This document shows positions 12,947 through 21,343 of a DNA stretch of 25,989 bases, in pieces. Positions within the stretch are counted from its first letter, which is position 1. Each line of letters begins with the position of its first letter. Made by a program: the position numbers and the translations under genes. The stretch comes from a bacterium (GTDB taxonomy: Bacteria > JAMCPX01). The notes below the pieces were generated by a model, which was not told where the DNA came from, did not search any database, and saw only the letters and a program-made list of their open reading frames with translations. The DNA lies in contig JAJYJX010000010.1 in assembly GCA_021789095.1 (NCBI GenBank), positions 1 to 25,989 on the forward strand, in the 5' to 3' direction.

Positions 12947-12974
12947 AGTATATACTTAATAAATAGTTAGTCAA
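12947..12974 (-). promoter_or_regulatory. Sigma-70 type promoter of rpsU-dnaG-rpoD
   Basis: On the minus strand, TTGACT (12974-12969), a 16-bp spacer and TATACT (12952-12947) lie about 40 bp upstream of the rpsU ATG. Both hexamers match consensus at five of six positions. The -35 box contains the TGA stop codon of the upstream protease gene. Placement ahead of a housekeeping operon makes this the most credible promoter in the window. Confidence 0.65.
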
Positions 12975-15463
12975 TAGATACTACCAACTTTTGATTTTGC
13001 GAGTTTCACAATGATAAACCATCCCAATAACAACAGTATAGAAGGGAACAGGTCTCCCGGATTGAATCTGCCATTGGATTGTGAGCACATGCAGCCGTTT
13101 GACGAGCTTTCAAGAAAACTGGTCCCGCCGGTAGATGGGTATATGGATGTATTCCCGTAAGGGTCAGCGGAAACAACCCGGTATAAGTAGATTTTCCCTG
13201 AATTCAATTTTGATAGATTGGTTAGATCGACAATGTGTGACTCCGTCATGGTTGTTGTGCCTGCAGAGAATGTCTGGCCTGTAAAACCGGCTGCCCAGTA
13301 TAGTACATAGCTTGAACTCAGTTTATTCGTGTTCCATTTTATCTGTACAGAGGATATACCGGTTACTGTTCCAGCCACATTGGATATAACGGGTCCCATT
13401 GTACTTGTGCTTATTGGTGTTGTAGAAGTAACAAGATTTAAAGCATTTAATTTTCCATAACCCCAATCATTATTCGGTAATGTATTTGTTGTCCATGTGT
13501 CACTGGTTGCGGATGTTTCAAGCAGGTTGATTGTGTCTGTTATATCAAGCCCGCTGTTCCTGTCATAAAGCAGTGCAATAGCCCCGACAACATGCGGAGT
13601 CGCCATACTTGTACCGCGCAGGACAATATGTGTACCGTCCTGTGTAATAAGTTGCTGAGCAAACAATGCTTTCTGCGACAGAGCAGATACAATATCCTCA
13701 CCCGGCGCTGTTATGTTCGGTTTCCGGCCGGTCGAAGCTGGATCAGGGGTTGGTCCCCGGCTGGAAAAAAACGATACATTACCTATTGGCTGAGTATCGG
13801 TAAACCCATACGTCAGTCCATCTTTTGCAATCCACTCGTCCTTTGTAACAAACGATCCCACTGCAATTGCATATCTTGCCGTTGCAGGGAAAGATACAGT
13901 ATCGGATGTGTCACCGGCAATCATGGTGTATCCAGGAATGGAGATGGTCGTCATTGTATCAAACAGGCTGTTATCCGAAAAGATCCATGCGTTCAATGAC
14001 TGGCCGCTTGAGCCGTTATTTTGTGTCAGCACTACGTATCTGTAGCTATTCTTTGAATTGGTAAGGTCTATTGCGGAATTGCCGCCGTTTGTGATGGTAA
14101 ATACAACTTCATTTTTTGATGTTCCTCCGGATGCCACATTACTGGCATCTATCTGTGCATACCCATATATAGTGCTCTGTGATTGCAAAGTTTCAGCCGC
14201 ACTATTACCCGGGTTTACAAAACCGGTCTGTGTAAGTGTGTTGCCGCTCAGATCTATTACACCAAGGGCAAATGAAAGGTCAGGCGATGCTGTGTTATAC
14301 CATAGATCAATGTCTACCTCACTTGTATCCGGGTTTTCAGGATTTGATCCAACGGAGAAATATGAAGCGTATGGACCGGCTGTAGTCGCAGTAAATCCAA
14401 GATGTACGGGATTGCCCCCGTCATTACCGGCTGCAACAACCACCGCCCTACCAGTGGCTTGTGTTACAAAGCCATCCAGTGCCTGCTCCATGCTTGAAGA
14501 GTCATCATGCGGCCCGAGCTGTGCGCCAAGGCTTATGTTTACAACAGCCGGTATACCGTACTGTGATGCAAGAGAAAAGATATAATTAATGCCGTCAAGG
14601 ACATGCGCTTCCGTCATGTCTGTTTTTACGATAACCAGCATTGCATCTGGTGCCATGCCCGTATATACGGCATTGCTGCTGCCTGCTATGCCGGTAACGT
14701 GCGTGCCATGGCCGACCGTATCAATTTCGCTGCACGTGCCTTTATTTATCTGATAGCCTGTACATTCATTCCCATAATTATAGTTCTGGGGCGGTGCAGG
14801 TTTGCAAGTGGGTAAACTGCAGGTTTGATCCCAAAGGGCTATTACCTTCGTGCTGCCGTCCGCATAATGCAGGTCAGGATGTTTCAGGTCAAGTCCGCTG
14901 TCGACAATGCCTATGATGACATTTTTGCCTGTATACGGTCTTGGCAGGCCATTACCCCCATTATGGACAATATCACCTTGAACAGCGGGTACGCTTTTAT
15001 CAAGCAAGAAATGCAGCTTCCGCGACAGTACAATATTTGTCAGGCTCTGCTTTTCAACCAATGCAGGAACAAGCGACAGCGGTACCGTTGCAGTCATAAT
15101 ACCGTTTATGGATGTACCTGTGGAGCCGTTGTTGCTTGCTATGAATTGTTTCATCCTGTCCGGGGATGTTGTTTTCAGTATGACGTCCACCATGGTTTCT
15201 CCGGACTGTGATTTACTTATCGAGCCGTTCAGGAGCGTTGGCGAAAGGACGGGTGAGGCATGATAGGGAGAAAGCGTGTTGACGGCATTGTACAGCCCGC
15301 TCAGGAACGGGTCTATTTTTGTATCGGCATAGACACGGGGTGCTATCAGCATAACCATTATAAGCGTGATAAAACCGCATTTTCTTAATTTCCCTCTCAG
15401 CTTAAGAGGGCGGGCACACAACGAAGATTGGGTAGGCGTTACAATTTGTCTCGGCGCACTCAT
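12971..15463 (-). CDS. Secreted subtilisin-like (S8) serine protease with C-terminal surface-anchor tail
   Basis: The 830-residue product has an N-terminal signal peptide (basic KLRGKLRK, hydrophobic FITLIMVMLIAP, probable cleavage after VYA at about 46). An I9-like propeptide spans about 88-150. The S8 catalytic triad is D188 (GIVDSGLDLKHPDLH), H252 (GHGTHVTG) and S619 (RGTSMATPHVVGA), with oxyanion N347 (AAGND). About 200 residues between N347 and S619, rich in beta-type sequence (DIDLWYNTASPDL), form an inserted domain reminiscent of Csp-type jelly rolls. A fibronectin III-like segment (685-785) precedes the tail: GCMCSQ (C791, C793), a hydrophobic helix (about 802-819) and a Lys-containing end. 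The tail resembles MYXO-CTERM-type sorting signals. Residues 1-27 lie over a palindromic element, so TTG at residue 15 is an alternative start. It is probably a T2SS substrate, which is inference. Confidence 0.9.
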   Translation of the reverse strand: MSAPRQIVTPTQSSLCARPLKLRGKLRKCGFITLIMVMLIAPRVYADTKIDPFLSGLYNAVNTLSPYHASPVLSPTLLNGSISKSQSGETMVDVILKTTSPDRMKQFIASNNGSTGTSINGIMTATVPLSLVPALVEKQSLTNIVLSRKLHFLLDKSVPAVQGDIVHNGGNGLPRPYTGKNVIIGIVDSGLDLKHPDLHYADGSTKVIALWDQTCSLPTCKPAPPQNYNYGNECTGYQINKGTCSEIDTVGHGTHVTGIAGSSNAVYTGMAPDAMLVIVKTDMTEAHVLDGINYIFSLASQYGIPAVVNISLGAQLGPHDDSSSMEQALDGFVTQATGRAVVVAAGNDGGNPVHLGFTATTAGPYASYFSVGSNPENPDTSEVDIDLWYNTASPDLSFALGVIDLSGNTLTQTGFVNPGNSAAETLQSQSTIYGYAQIDASNVASGGTSKNEVVFTITNGGNSAIDLTNSKNSYRYVVLTQNNGSSGQSLNAWIFSDNSLFDTMTTISIPGYTMIAGDTSDTVSFPATARYAIAVGSFVTKDEWIAKDGLTYGFTDTQPIGNVSFFSSRGPTPDPASTGRKPNITAPGEDIVSALSQKALFAQQLITQDGTHIVLRGTSMATPHVVGAIALLYDRNSGLDITDTINLLETSATSDTWTTNTLPNNDWGYGKLNALNLVTSTTPISTSTMGPVISNVAGTVTGISSVQIKWNTNKLSSSYVLYWAAGFTGQTFSAGTTTMTESHIVDLTNLSKLNSGKIYLYRVVSADPYGNTSIYPSTGGTSFLESSSNGCMCSQSNGRFNPGDLFPSILLLLGWFIIVKLAKSKVGSIY

Positions 15464-15727: not shown

Positions 15728-15743
15728 TTAGTTAAATTGTTGT
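15711..15743 (-). terminator. Candidate AT-rich terminator after the second small exported protein
   Basis: A perfect 9-bp inverted repeat, ACAACAATT and AATTGTTGT with a 15-nt loop, spans the stop codon of the preceding gene. It is followed on the minus strand by a T-rich run (TTATTTTTT). The stem has few GC pairs, so termination strength is doubtful. It marks the likely end of the accA-gspLMN transcription unit. Confidence 0.35.
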
Positions 15744-16333
15744 ACCCCCAAGTCACATCTTCCTGATAGCCCCCGACAGTCAATAGATCTGCAAAAGAAA
15801 AGTATAGCAGTTGTTCCGGAGATAACTGTTTCGGTAAACATAGTAGAAGACGCTCCGCTGCTGTCAAAAGAAAGAACAATCAACCTAAGAGATAAAGTAC
15901 CGCCCTCGGCTTGACCCAGCTGGGTAATATTCAGAGCACCTAAAGTAGAATACTCGTTCCCGCTTAAATCAACATAAGAATATAACGGGCGTATACTTAC
16001 GCTCGGATATTGCTCGCTAACATTATTAAGAATAGGGCTTACGTTTGAGGCTTTTTTATCGGCAACCGATATCGTTGACCCCGTATAAGCGTATGCTGCA
16101 CTATTGCTATCATAATCAACGTTGAACGCACAAGAAATCTGACTGCCCTGTAAGGCTCTTGCCAGGCTCTGCTGTAGGACTTCCTTGTTCACGGGGCCAC
16201 CATTACCTCCGCCATTTCCGCAGCGACCTGCGGCCATAACCGCTATCGCTAAAATCATCATCCCGAAAAACATTATTACGTATATGATAATATATTTTAA
16301 GAAAATGTCAAAAAGGGAAAACCAGCTTACCAC
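15728..16333 (-). CDS. Small exported or membrane-anchored protein, paralogue of the preceding lipoprotein
   Basis: I do not recognise a named family. The 201-residue product (GTG start; ATG at 16273 is an alternative) has a long hydrophobic N-terminus ending AVMAAGRCGNGGGNGG. Its neighbour has IVAAGCGSGGNGS, so the two align except for one extra Arg codon (CGC) directly before the cysteine, which spoils the lipobox. Similarity continues with SCAFNVDYDSNSAAYAY versus TCGVMDSVSYAPVQYAY, then GTLSL versus GTISL, and MFTETVIS versus IFAETVVP. The protein is shorter in the middle and runs about 20 residues past the neighbour's end with an odd Cys/Arg-rich tail. It may be a decaying duplicate or may have changed its anchoring mode. 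Last gene of the gsp-linked operon. Confidence 0.6.
   Translation of the reverse strand: MVSWFSLFDIFLKYIIIYVIMFFGMMILAIAVMAAGRCGNGGGNGGPVNKEVLQQSLARALQGSQISCAFNVDYDSNSAAYAYTGSTISVADKKASNVSPILNNVSEQYPSVSIRPLYSYVDLSGNEYSTLGALNITQLGQAEGGTLSLRLIVLSFDSSGASSTMFTETVISGTTAILFFCRSIDCRGLSGRCDLGVQQFN
16284..16311 (-). promoter_or_regulatory. Candidate internal promoter in the 5' end of the second small exported protein gene
   Basis: On the minus strand, a perfect TTGACA (16311-16306), a 16-bp spacer and TATCAT (16289-16284, five of six) lie just before the in-frame ATG at 16273. A transcript from here would be almost leaderless. It competes with the reading that translation starts at the upstream GTG. 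Low confidence because the surroundings are AT-rich. Confidence 0.3.
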
Positions 16334-16357: not shown

Positions 16358-17437
16358 CTAAGGAACGATTAGTGTAAACGGCACTACTGTCTCGGCAAAA
16401 ATCGGCAAGCGAGTATCGGTCATTGCTCTCATATTAAGTCCGTCGAAGTCCACATCGGGATCGTAAATCGTAATTTTTTCCTGATAAGTACCGCTCGCAA
16501 GACTACCGTCGTTGCAAATCATAAGCGGCATTTGGAAGCTTTGTCCCGGACTAACAATTTCGGGCCACTGGCAATAACCATAACCATTGCAAGACATTAT
16601 ATCGTAGGTATTGACCGTCCCAAAATTCAAGCTTACGGGTTGATCTGAATAAGAAAAATAGACCAGCTGACCCGGCGATATTGAGTTGATTATATCACCA
16701 CTCGTTATGCTCTTGGATGTAGTCGTAAAAAAACTATCTACAAAGGTGATTGTTTGCCCGGAAACGCATTGATTGACCCCCGAAGGCAATGTTATGGTTA
16801 ACTTGCTGGAGACCGGAGTAATTACGTTGCCTGCGTCATCAAGATCGGCACTTATCTTATTCCCGTTTGCGTCAAATACGCTAAACAGTTGATAACGAGG
16901 ATAAATCGGAATCCCAGAACAGGAACCGCTTACGGTAAAAGTCTGATTTATGGTATTCGTCATTAATAGAATCGTGAGCGAAATAGTTCCGCTTCCAAAA
17001 TTACCAACTGCCGTTGGATAACCAAGATCGGGCATATGGCTGCCATCCCAGTAATCCTCTACTTTATCCACGCCATCCTCGCTATAGACATATTCTCCGG
17101 AACCACTGAGAACGCCGTATTTTGCAATGGTACTAAAGAAATCAGCGGCATTATTCATCGCATTAAGATCGGTCAGAAACGTACCTTGATCTCCGGCATA
17201 AGCATACTGAACCGGAGCATAGCTAACCGAATCCATAACTCCGCACGTGATCTGAAGAGACATTGTCAATGACTGAATGGTCTTATTTATGCTCTCCCGA
17301 TCTGATGCTGTGCTGCCATTACCGCCCGAACCGCAACCCGCAGCCACGATCGCTACCGCCAAAACCATCATCACGAAAAACGTTATTCTGTTCAGAAATT
17401 TCATACATTTCATATTGATTAGCAGGATCTTTTTCAT
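16358..17437 (-). CDS. Putative lipoprotein of unknown function linked to T2SS genes
   Basis: I do not recognise a named family. The 359-residue product has a signal peptide II-type N-terminus (basic MKFLNR, hydrophobic FFVMMVLAVAIV, then AAGC with C35 as the lipidated cysteine) followed by a GSGGNGS linker. The body looks like beta-rich extracytoplasmic sequence: Ser/Thr/Gly/Asn-rich, with further Cys residues that could pair (TCGVM, SGSCSG, NQCVSG, MSCNGYGYC, MICND). The ATG overlaps the gspN stop by 4 bp, so it is translated with the T2SS genes and may be a secretion accessory or surface protein. The following gene looks like a shortened paralogue. Confidence 0.7.
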   Translation of the reverse strand: MKKILLINMKCMKFLNRITFFVMMVLAVAIVAAGCGSGGNGSTASDRESINKTIQSLTMSLQITCGVMDSVSYAPVQYAYAGDQGTFLTDLNAMNNAADFFSTIAKYGVLSGSGEYVYSEDGVDKVEDYWDGSHMPDLGYPTAVGNFGSGTISLTILLMTNTINQTFTVSGSCSGIPIYPRYQLFSVFDANGNKISADLDDAGNVITPVSSKLTITLPSGVNQCVSGQTITFVDSFFTTTSKSITSGDIINSISPGQLVYFSYSDQPVSLNFGTVNTYDIMSCNGYGYCQWPEIVSPGQSFQMPLMICNDGSLASGTYQEKITIYDPDVDFDGLNMRAMTDTRLPIFAETVVPFTLIVP

Positions 17438-18369
17438 TGGTTAAACCTCGGAGCATTAAGATTTCCTGTAACGGATAGATTGAAGTAGCCTGATGCATCC
17501 CTTGTGAGCATGAAAAAGGGTATGGTCTTACGCATCTGCTGTTCCATCTCCGGTGTAGGATTGAACTTTAATTTAAGATTTAAAACACTGTTGCCTGCCG
17601 GATTTGCAAGTATGATACTTCCTTCAAGCTGTGAGTTTATATCTTTGCTTGCCTGGGTGGCATTCTGTATATCTACCCTGCCGTCCTTTACAAAGACCGG
17701 AAGGGAAATGTCTCCGAAGTTTATCTTGGGGAGTGTAAGGATGCCGGATAACGTGGAATGCCCCATGCTTGCATTCTTAATGTTTATAATACAGTTGCCG
17801 CTGTCTCTTGCAGCGTTGTCTAACGATCCCTTTATATTCCATTTTACATTGAGTATGCCATCCATATTCAACCCATAGTTGCTTTTTAGCAGAGAGTACC
17901 GGTCTATGTATATGTTCTTGATCACACCGTCGAAGTAAAAATCTGTTTTTTTGCTCCCCATTTCAAGAGAGGCCTGGCCGTTGTAAAGTGCTGCATGGAT
18001 CTTAAATGCAAGCCACCCTTTAAAAAGGGATAACACTGCCGGGGTAAGCTCAAAGGTGTGTGCCTCAAGTACAGGGCTTTCATTATCTCCTGTCTTTTTT
18101 GTGATGAGTACGTCGGTCAGTTTAAGACCTATAGGGAAGGCTCCTTCTGATTTTTTTACGCTCATGTCCATTGTTGTTTTACTTTTTATTTCATTGCTCA
18201 ATATGGTTGAAATTTCATTATAGGGGAACAGAAACCATAAAAAGATAAAGTAAAAAACGATAACAACTGTCAGGTATGCAAAAGCCTTTGCAAGTGCCCA
18301 TTTGTTCTCTGCAAGGAAATCTCTCAAAGAAAAGGAAAAAAACTTTACCTTTTGCCAGAATTTATTCAT
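17434..18369 (-). CDS. gspN: Type II secretion system protein N (GspN-type)
   Basis: The 311-residue product has one N-terminal membrane helix (about residues 28-48, VVIVFYFIFLWFLFP). A periplasmic part follows with the GspN/AsmA-like beta pattern: early KLTDVLITKK, AHTFELTPAVLSLFKGWLAF, and a late GSIILANPAGNSVLNLKLKF with a C-terminal GYFNLSVTGNLNAPRF. Deltaproteobacterial-type GspN proteins of this length are associated with the T2SS inner-membrane platform. It is translationally coupled on both sides (4-bp overlaps with gspM and the lipoprotein gene). Its position after gspL and gspM supports the call; the rest of the T2SS is not in the window. Confidence 0.8.
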   Translation of the reverse strand: MNKFWQKVKFFSFSLRDFLAENKWALAKAFAYLTVVIVFYFIFLWFLFPYNEISTILSNEIKSKTTMDMSVKKSEGAFPIGLKLTDVLITKKTGDNESPVLEAHTFELTPAVLSLFKGWLAFKIHAALYNGQASLEMGSKKTDFYFDGVIKNIYIDRYSLLKSNYGLNMDGILNVKWNIKGSLDNAARDSGNCIINIKNASMGHSTLSGILTLPKINFGDISLPVFVKDGRVDIQNATQASKDINSQLEGSIILANPAGNSVLNLKLKFNPTPEMEQQMRKTIPFFMLTRDASGYFNLSVTGNLNAPRFNQ

Positions 18370-18923
18370 TGGGGGGATCCGGGTATTATGACCTGCAGGC
18401 CTATATCCAGCAGGGACGGATTATTATACGATACTCTTGCATTCAGCCTTTTTATCTTTAACTGGTACTTGCCGCCCAGTTCTATCTTGAACAGAAGATT
18501 GTTGAGCTGATAAAGGCTTATGCCCTTGAGTCTTACATCGACATAAGATGTGCTGGTATCTGATGATGTTCTTGGCTGTATGGAATCGTATGATACACCT
18601 GCTGCGTTTGCAATGCCTTCGAGGTATGTCATTATGGAAAAATCCTTTGGTACACTTTCGTTACCGCGCAGCAGCAATTCATATTTCTTGTGTTCACTGT
18701 ATAATTTCTGCATTTCGGCCAGGCCTGTCCTCTCATCCTGCACTTCCTTTTTCAGCCTTACGCTGCTGCGGTATACCGGTGTGATCAGGGCGAGATCCAG
18801 TATAACAAATGCAGTCAGCAGCAAAGCGCCGGTTAAAAGCCATTTCTCCCTCCTGTTGAGCCGGCTGAACCCGCTTTTTATTTCTGAAAGAATATCGAAT
18901 TTTTTAAAAAAATTGTTTATCAT
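18366..18923 (-). CDS. gspM: Type II secretion system protein M (GspM-type)
   Basis: The short 185-residue product has a cytoplasmic N-terminus (KSGFSRLNRREKWL), one membrane helix (about 28-50, TGALLLTAFVILDLALI) and a coiled-coil stretch. A ferredoxin-like periplasmic domain follows (VSYDSIQPR, LKGISLYQLNNLLFKIE, LKIKRLNARV). GspM is a bitopic partner of GspL in the T2SS assembly platform and resembles PilO. It overlaps both gspL and gspN by 4 bp. Sequence conservation in this family is low, so the call rests on topology, fold pattern and position. Confidence 0.82.
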   Translation of the reverse strand: MINNFFKKFDILSEIKSGFSRLNRREKWLLTGALLLTAFVILDLALITPVYRSSVRLKKEVQDERTGLAEMQKLYSEHKKYELLLRGNESVPKDFSIMTYLEGIANAAGVSYDSIQPRTSSDTSTSYVDVRLKGISLYQLNNLLFKIELGGKYQLKIKRLNARVSYNNPSLLDIGLQVIIPGSPQ

Positions 18924-20371
18924 TTCAATGTTATACTGAGCTGAAATTCAAAACTCTTCTGGTCTGCCGACTTGCTGGTATCAATAACCTTTACGTCCTT
19001 TATGCTGCTGGAATTCTTAATGCCTGCCACTATTTTATCGACCCCATCAAGGGTGGGTGTTCTTCCTCTCAGCGTTATCTGTTCAGGATCAATGGACAAC
19101 TCCGTCACGTCAACCTTTACCTCTTTCGGTATACCTGTGCTGATTTCCCTTAATATCTCTATGACAGGTACTGAACCGGATAAATTTTCAGCTTTTTTCT
19201 TTTCTTTCGACACGAGGTAGCGCATGGTTCCGAGAGGATCCCCCATTGAAGGCTCATCCGAGAAGGCATTCTTAAACACCTGCAGCATTTTGTTATCCAG
19301 TGTATGCTTCTTGTGGTTAAGGCTTATATAGCCGTAAGCCATATTGATGATAAACATGAATAGAAGCAGACATGCGATGCCGAGTGTGGCAATCAACCTG
19401 CCCTTTATCTGCTCTATGGCGCGCTGGAATTGAAAAGATCCCTTCCTTAAGTTTATAAGATTGCGCGGTTTTCTCATGATATTTCTTAATGTAAGAGCGA
19501 ATGCAAGGGTATACTCCTGTCCTACGGGTATGTTTTCATCTGTCGCAGCTCTGACAATGTCGTTGAGGGGCAGGGAAAATGTCTGGAGCTCAAGCTGTTT
19601 TTCAAATAAGGGGGCTTTATCGGAAAACCTGCCGGCAAATACAGCAGAACTTATGTTTGTATTAAATCTTTTTTCCACCATACTTAGGGAAAGCTTCAGT
19701 TCGTTTATAAAGGCAGATTTTACCTTTTCATTCATAGTGTCTTTATCTGTAGTTAACTCCATCATGGGAGCACTCATTTTGATGTCCCTTGCTATGAACA
19801 GACCATTGCCGTTGATGAAAGAAACAGAGGTGTGCGCATGACCGATATCTATAATCACGAATGGTTCAACCAGTTTTATATAGGTAGAGAGATTAGAATA
19901 TGCACAGTGTGAAATATCGATTATGTTAGGGTCCAGACCAACCCGCAGCAGTGCATCCAGCCATTGTTTTATTGCATCGGTACTCAGGGCAAATGTAATT
20001 GCAGACGCCTTTGTGCCCTCTTTACCGATCGTATTGTAATCCATTACCGCCTCTTCAAGGCTGTACGGACTTACCTCTTCAAGCTCAGGACCTATTGCCT
20101 GGGATATAAGCTTGTCCTCTGTAAACGGTACCGAGATTGTGTGCACGGATACGATATCAGACGGAATGCCTGCAATCACATCTGATGATGAAATCCCTTC
20201 AATTGAAAAGAATTCCTTGAGGCCTTCGATATTCGTGTCAGAGAGAAGCCCGGTGTTCTCAGGAAACACAAACTCCTTCGATACAATGTGCTCAATGCCC
20301 CTTATGGTTGTTTTTAAGCCAACCATTTTTACCGAGTATCTTCCGATGTCAATGCCAAATATAGCGCCCAT
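18920..20371 (-). CDS. gspL: Type II secretion system protein L (GspL, PilM/PilN-like)
   Basis: The 483-residue product joins a cytoplasmic actin-like (PilM-type) domain to a PilN-like periplasmic domain through one membrane helix (about 325-348, LIATLGIACLLLFMFIINMAYGYI). Actin-fold motifs are IFGIDIGRYSVKMVGL at the N-terminus and VIIDIGHAHTSVSFI (172-186). The periplasmic part (about 385-483) has VPVIEILREISTGIPKEV and ITLRGRTP typical of PilN/GspL. GspL docks the GspE ATPase to the inner-membrane platform. It starts 6 nt after the accA stop and overlaps gspM by 4 bp. A pilus PilM-N protein is the alternative, but the order L-M-N favours T2SS. Confidence 0.85.
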   Translation of the reverse strand: MGAIFGIDIGRYSVKMVGLKTTIRGIEHIVSKEFVFPENTGLLSDTNIEGLKEFFSIEGISSSDVIAGIPSDIVSVHTISVPFTEDKLISQAIGPELEEVSPYSLEEAVMDYNTIGKEGTKASAITFALSTDAIKQWLDALLRVGLDPNIIDISHCAYSNLSTYIKLVEPFVIIDIGHAHTSVSFINGNGLFIARDIKMSAPMMELTTDKDTMNEKVKSAFINELKLSLSMVEKRFNTNISSAVFAGRFSDKAPLFEKQLELQTFSLPLNDIVRAATDENIPVGQEYTLAFALTLRNIMRKPRNLINLRKGSFQFQRAIEQIKGRLIATLGIACLLLFMFIINMAYGYISLNHKKHTLDNKMLQVFKNAFSDEPSMGDPLGTMRYLVSKEKKKAENLSGSVPVIEILREISTGIPKEVKVDVTELSIDPEQITLRGRTPTLDGVDKIVAGIKNSSSIKDVKVIDTSKSADQKSFEFQLSITLK

Positions 20372-20377
20372 AAATAT

Positions 20378-21343
20378 CTATTTCCCGATTTCCCTGAACT
20401 GCCCCATGGATCTATACCTGCTGTAGCGGTTTTTAACAAGTTCATCCGCGGGTATGGATTTAAGTTCTGCGAGTGCACTGATCAGGGCCTCTTTTATGGT
20501 CTGCGCCATTGACTTGGGATCATTATGTGCACCTCCCGCAGGTTCTTTTAAGATTTCATCAGCGATGCCCATCCGCTTCAAATCATCCGCGGTCATCTTT
20601 AAAGCATCAGCTGCCTGAGGGGCTTTTGATTGATCCTTCCACAATATGGCAGCGCATCCTTCCGGAGATATAACGGAATATACCGCATATTCCAGTATAA
20701 ACATTTTATCTACAAGACCTATTGCCAGGGCTCCTCCGCTGCTCCCTTCGCCTATTATACAGCCTATCGTAGGGACTGTGATACCCGCCAGTTTCAGAAT
20801 TGATTCTGATATTGCTTCTGCCTGCCCGCGCTCCTCGGCACCTATGCCGGGATATGCTCCGGGAGTGTCGATAAAGGTAACGATGGGTATGCCGAACTTC
20901 TGTGCAATGTCCATTGCGCGCATTGCCTTCCTGTACCCTTCAGGATGAGGCATTCCAAAATTCCTCAATACCCTGTCCTTTGAGCCTCTGCCCTTCTGTT
21001 CACCTATGAAAACAACCCGCTGATCATTGAGCAGTCCTATGCCGGATACAATGGCAGTATCATCCTTGAACCGCCTGTCGCCGTGTATTTCGACAAATTC
21101 ATTGGAAATGAGGTATATGTAATCGTACGTGTATGGCCTTTCAGGATGCCTTGAAAGCTGAACGATTTTCCATGCACTGAGATTGGAAAAGGTTTCTTCC
21201 CGAAGCTTTTTGACCTTTTTCTCCAGTCTTGCTATCTCATCAGAAAGATCTATGCCCTCTGATGCGGAAAGCTGCCTGAATTCTTCTATCTTTTTTTCCA
21301 GCTCATAAATAGGTTTTTCAAAATCAAGCGGTTGATGGATCAT
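20378..21343 (-). CDS. accA: Acetyl-CoA carboxylase carboxyltransferase subunit alpha
   Basis: AccA works with AccD to transfer carboxyl from biotin to acetyl-CoA, making malonyl-CoA for fatty acid synthesis. The 321-residue product starts with the family's LDFEKPIYELEKKIEE. It contains HPERPYTYDYI, FIGEQKGRGSKDR, FGMPHPEGYRKAMR, DTPGAYPGIGAEERGQAEAI, and GEGSSGGALAIG followed by SPEGCAAILWKD, all intact. No accD is in the window. It is first in a close-packed run with gspL, gspM and gspN, an unusual partner set for a metabolic enzyme. No obvious Shine-Dalgarno sequence precedes the ATG. Confidence 0.97.
   Translation of the reverse strand: MIHQPLDFEKPIYELEKKIEEFRQLSASEGIDLSDEIARLEKKVKKLREETFSNLSAWKIVQLSRHPERPYTYDYIYLISNEFVEIHGDRRFKDDTAIVSGIGLLNDQRVVFIGEQKGRGSKDRVLRNFGMPHPEGYRKAMRAMDIAQKFGIPIVTFIDTPGAYPGIGAEERGQAEAISESILKLAGITVPTIGCIIGEGSSGGALAIGLVDKMFILEYAVYSVISPEGCAAILWKDQSKAPQAADALKMTADDLKRMGIADEILKEPAGGAHNDPKSMAQTIKEALISALAELKSIPADELVKNRYSRYRSMGQFREIGK

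Follow-up and report, generated by a model that had tools for sequence, protein, structure and literature searches.

A conserved cysteine-containing C-terminal tail on a subtilase encoded near type II secretion genes: a probable sorting signal with a candidate myxosortase-family enzyme

The subtilase gene and its secretion gene neighbourhood

The stretch of DNA analysed here (25,989 nucleotides, referred to as the window) carries on its minus strand a conserved block of genes that starts with accA (20378..21343). It is followed by a gspL-like gene (18920..20371), whose product harbors PilM and PilN domains and matches GspL below its cut-off, by gspM (18366..18923; PF04612, 36.2 bits, cut-off 27.8), and by gspN (17434..18369; TIGR04411, 151.8 bits, cut-off 50). 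The end of gspN (17434) lies 2.0 kb from the start of a subtilase gene (12971..15463), and the gap is occupied by two lipoprotein-like ORFs of the same strand, one with a VAAGC lipobox (16358..17437; canonical AAGC) and one with AAGRC in place of AAGC (15728..16333). The N-termini of these two ORFs are related (35% over 66 aa), and relatives do not possess the ORF 15728..16333 at the position between gspN and the subtilase gene.

The order accA-gspL-gspM-gspN-subtilase is kept in three related genomes (G002, G003, and G005), and in a fourth (G001) gspN-subtilase is visible on a short contig. The window genome encodes GspD (551 bits, curated cut-off 351) and GspC_delta (213 bits, curated cut-off 150), and in G003 GspE, GspF, and GspK score above their cut-offs. 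The genome thus possesses a type II secretion system (T2SS) and not merely a type IV pilus. T2SS genes about 2 kb upstream of the subtilase gene and on the same strand had been proposed in the original prediction; they are gspN, gspM, and the gspL-like gene, and their order is conserved.

The subtilase (S8 family; PF00082, E 6e-36) comprises 830 aa, with all three catalytic motifs intact (D188, H252, and the Ser-containing motif), an FN3-like C-terminal domain, and a C-terminal tail (12971..13105, minus strand) that is evident from the translation, from an alignment of relatives (A1), and from its region-wise conservation. The protein ends in SSSNGCMCSQSNGRFNPGDLFPSILLLLGWFIIVKLAKSKVGSIY (FLESSSNGCMCSQSNGRFNPGDLFPSILLLLGWFIIVKLAKSKVGSIY). 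As predicted, and at the predicted coordinates, GCMCSQ is followed by a hydrophobic stretch and a Lys-containing end (KLAKSK). The signature S-x-x-GCxC-x-QS-x-G-x4-GD spans residues 787-804, with GCMC starting at residue 790 (codon 13096-13094), the hydrophobic helix covers approximately residues 805-823, and the Lys-containing end residues 824-830. The best 19-residue hydropathy window (residues 804-822, KD mean 1.94) falls on this helix.

Conservation and spread of the tail

Orthologs of the subtilase and one paralog keep the tail (alignment A1), with mostly basic ends. Among the subtilase tails, mean pairwise identity is highest in the signature (67%), followed by the linker that precedes it (50%), the helix (36%), and the end (15%), a gradient that has the appearance of a recognition motif joined to a helix constrained only in composition. 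If the tail were a plain C-terminal anchor, i.e. a helix that keeps the unprocessed protease in the inner membrane, with cysteines that form a disulphide or bind metal, the helix and the Lys end would suffice by themselves, and the better conservation of the signature compared to the helix would be left unexplained.

Tails were searched with profiles, first A1, built from subtilase relatives, and then the wider A2; in the window genome (assembly 92% complete, 203 contigs) they were counted by these profile searches alone. Only two were detected there, on the window subtilase and on a paralogous subtilase (G000:C109). A second protein with the same tail, for which a search had been suggested originally, is hence present, and the fact that the only two carriers in this genome are paralogous would also suit a plain anchor. 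The spread to other cargo is shown through the relatives, since both tails of the window genome sit on paralogous subtilases. Tails with the invariant Cys occur in all nine genomes examined from this small phylum and on at least five mutually unrelated groups of exported proteins; after removal of the last 60 residues, the carriers form five groups without detectable mutual similarity. Among them, P0010 (approximately 1,240 aa) has a subtilase domain and a weak match of the FG-GAP-like kind, P0014 is a subtilase of approximately 1,060 aa that also contains a BACON-like domain, P0012 is GH15/oligosaccharide-amylase-like, and P0013 is an NHL-propeller protein, whereas P0011 and P0015 carry single-Cys tails and show weak OmpL47/Ig-like matches. 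According to a reading of the translations, the N-termini of the tailed proteins look signal-peptide-like or lipoprotein-like. A search of the window genome did not detect the protein of approximately 1,240 aa that most relatives encode.

The tail is more than chance, because it is kept in orthologs and a paralog, is present on unrelated proteins, and is rare outside the phylum. A plain anchor, which we regard as improbable, does not explain why otherwise dissimilar proteins share this tail, always at the extreme C-terminus, or why the tails occur in genomes with a myxosortase-family enzyme; the existence of single-Cys tails also argues against a necessary disulphide. As single-Cys tails (FGC and SGCAW types) retain the position of the first Cys, Cys791 is the likelier functional, putatively lipidated residue of GCxC. 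Weak candidate tails of the GGWTC type would align to the second Cys instead. With CxC and single-Cys tags in one phylum and approximately one myxosortase (Mrt) per genome, these tails may help to decide which Cys is functional.

Several further observations were made on the tail carriers. The second tailed subtilase (L104, 3416-6142, minus strand) is surrounded by liv genes, which resemble those of branched-chain amino acid transporters, and is not adjacent to gsp genes. Another locus (L093, 1623-8144, minus strand) encodes a tandem pair of 1,040-aa proteins whose single-Cys tails (SSSSSGCAWLGTQG...) are identical, and a third protein, of the FFGCS type, comes after them. Two genera share one arrangement of two overlapping ORFs in different frames (L106, 2383-2927, and L107, 2257-2801, both minus strand), the first with a signal-peptide-like start and the second with a Cys-helix-basic tail (GGWTCNTSDSS...) at its end; its occurrence in two genera suggests either that a frameshift is conserved or that both share a disrupted gene. 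A weak tail match in a CstA-like protein of the window genome (contig C4) was dropped as chance after reading, as were further low-scoring profile matches.

A myxosortase-family protease as candidate enzyme

The original prediction also suggested a search of the genome for a rhombosortase or a CAAX-type processing protease. The single CPBP (PF02517) protease found, P0009 (213 aa, contig C59), reaches 113.3 bits with the Mrt_core model NF040914 ('myxosortase family intramembrane protease'; cut-off 100). A plain membrane anchor had been named as the outcome if the genome held neither a second tailed protein nor a matching enzyme; both were found. The motifs EEVFYR, AGHL, and HWLSN of P0009 correspond to EExxxR, H, and HxxxN, the kinds of residues reported for MrtX and MmRce1 (PMC11980579). 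A search of solved structures by sequence gave no match for P0009. In the Mrt proteins of genus g2 (L029, L030, and L031 from G008, G001, and G007), HxxxN reads HWLSD.

P0009 remains below every named equivalog cut-off (MrtX, MrtC, MrtP, MrtS, MrtZ, and MrtJ), the best named subfamily being MrtP (167.7 bits, cut-off 250). This would be compatible with a tag cut by another enzyme (a rhombosortase, an exosortase, or another protease), with the Mrt-like protease serving a different job, and several further Mrt-core genomes show no A2 tail. We nevertheless consider another enzyme very improbable: Cys-signature tags are the type that is paired with Mrt enzymes, MYXO-CTERM and JDVT-CTERM are the tag models that match more than one tail, and the sole CPBP protease found in the genome is an Mrt.

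Across the phylum, an Mrt above the NF040914 cut-off was found in 7/9 genomes, including all four with at least 90% completeness, and two tail-bearing genomes of lower completeness (82% and 87%) gave no Mrt match. A tree that also contained 19 Mrt-core proteins from other genomes places the seven of the phylum in a single clade (97/100), the stem of which is long (1.07 changes per column). The P0009 gene adjoins mutS, and no tailed gene is adjacent to mrt. The mrt-mutS adjacency (L001, L060, L062, and L128) is seen across the phylum and also in an unrelated genome, G051.

Outside the phylum, A2 matched at E≤1e-4 in only two of the 281 other genomes (G051 and G196), both of one family. G051 carries an Mrt-core enzyme together with tailed relatives of the window subtilase (L010) and of P0010 (P0016). 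Tail and Mrt-core occur together in eight of the 290 genomes (Fisher p 2e-6), seven of which belong to one phylum; among the 281 other genomes tail and Mrt-core show no significant association (p=0.18), and the tail model was built from the phylum. The co-occurrence therefore rests on few independent events.

Relation to known tags and proposed route to the surface

Known invariant-Cys tags include MYXO-CTERM, JDVT-CTERM, and Synerg-CTERM. Comparison with the curated C-terminal sorting models did not bear out a direct assignment: the window tail matches no NCBIfam tag model, including TIGR03901 for MYXO-CTERM (cut-off 20 bits). A genome-wide TIGR03901 search of the window genome gave no match either, a weak negative since no control gave signal. 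Weak matches were obtained with MYXO-CTERM for five of the other tails and with JDVT-CTERM for four, the best JDVT-CTERM score (NF033191) being 13.6 bits with a cut-off of 27. One relative's P0014-type tail, scanned alone, reaches 20.3 bits with MYXO-CTERM (cut-off 20). The window tail shows the MYXO-CTERM layout of invariant Cys, helix, and C-terminal basic cluster. The tag is probably related to MYXO-CTERM, and by the curated model the window protein is no member. The missing curated match of the window tail and the borderline match in one relative point to a divergent, uncatalogued class of Cys-type tags with its own Mrt clade. The tail profile can serve as a tag model for tails that the curated families miss.

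The closest comparison is the MYXO-CTERM/MrtX system of Myxococcus xanthus (TIGR03901, NF040593), which shares the tripartite tail (Cys signature, generic GCGC; helix; basic end), a CPBP-family Mrt with equal catalytic motifs, a T2SS, and proteases among the cargo. It differs in that the window signature is GCxCxQS..GD, a tailed cargo gene is linked to gspLMN, P0009 scores 115.7 bits with the MrtX model (cut-off 180), and the phylum of the window genome apparently lies outside Myxococcota. JDVT-CTERM/MrtJ (NF033191, NF033192) likewise combines a Cys-type tail with a related Mrt enzyme, whereas here the two-gene mrt-cargo neighbourhood is missing and several cargo proteins exist per phylum. Synerg-CTERM/MrtS (TIGR04564, NF040589) resembles the single-Cys P0011-type tails, but both components stay below the cut-offs (tail 11.6 vs 22.5 bits, enzyme 89.6 vs 130 bits). 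GlyGly-CTERM/rhombosortase (Vibrio cholerae VesB) is similar in its tailed serine protease and surface route via the T2SS; in contrast, the GlyGly signature is absent here and the candidate enzyme is a CPBP protease and not a rhomboid.

We propose, at a probability of about 0.82, that the tail is an invariant-Cys sorting signal processed by P0009 on a lipid-anchored protease displayed through the T2SS. An N-terminal signal peptide would direct the subtilase across the inner membrane, where the C-terminal helix would hold it. A putative acyltransferase would then lipidate a Cys of GCxC, most likely Cys791, P0009, a myxosortase-family glutamic intramembrane protease, would remove the helix, and the T2SS would carry the folded, lipid-anchored subtilase to the outer surface. 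Lipidation, cleavage, and T2SS-dependent display are assumed by analogy to Myxococcus, where MrtX cleaves TraA in a Cys-dependent manner, in E. coli too, and MYXO-CTERM proteins need the T2SS to reach the surface (PMC11980579); the window tag may work in the same way. What is established here is how the tail is conserved and distributed, that the genome encodes an enzyme of the Mrt family and a T2SS, and that the gene order is conserved. Against the proposal count the lack of a curated match for the window tail itself, the two paralogous carriers, the scores of P0009 below the named Mrt subfamilies, the unlinked mrt gene, the two tail-bearing genomes that gave no Mrt match, and the non-significant association outside the phylum. 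The original interpretation as a divergent MYXO-CTERM-like sorting tag largely holds: the conserved signature, its spread, and the Mrt enzyme support it, but the curated model does not recognize the window tail.

The recently proven myxosortase pathway would thereby be extended to a small uncultured phylum. In Myxococcus, the connection of Cys-type tags with the T2SS comes from experiments with few cargo proteins, and the gene order described above supports this connection. Of the new results, the one that says most about the mechanism is that the gspM-gspN-subtilase order recurs in an unrelated genome (G022), where a diverged gspM-gspN pair is followed by a subtilase with 33% identity. This subtilase has a Cys-helix-Arg tail, ending RGFGCRFSPEGDLPGTLLLLLLVFQVMWVLAYTRREN, and the Mrt-core enzyme of the same genome scores 104 bits. 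A further, rather unlikely reading is that gspL-M-N and a Cys-tailed subtilase constitute a cross-phylum module, in which the surface-anchored subtilase would be more than one of the cargo proteins, namely a T2SS-associated maturation protease for other Cys-tailed cargo, served by a distinct Mrt subfamily and tag class in this phylum.
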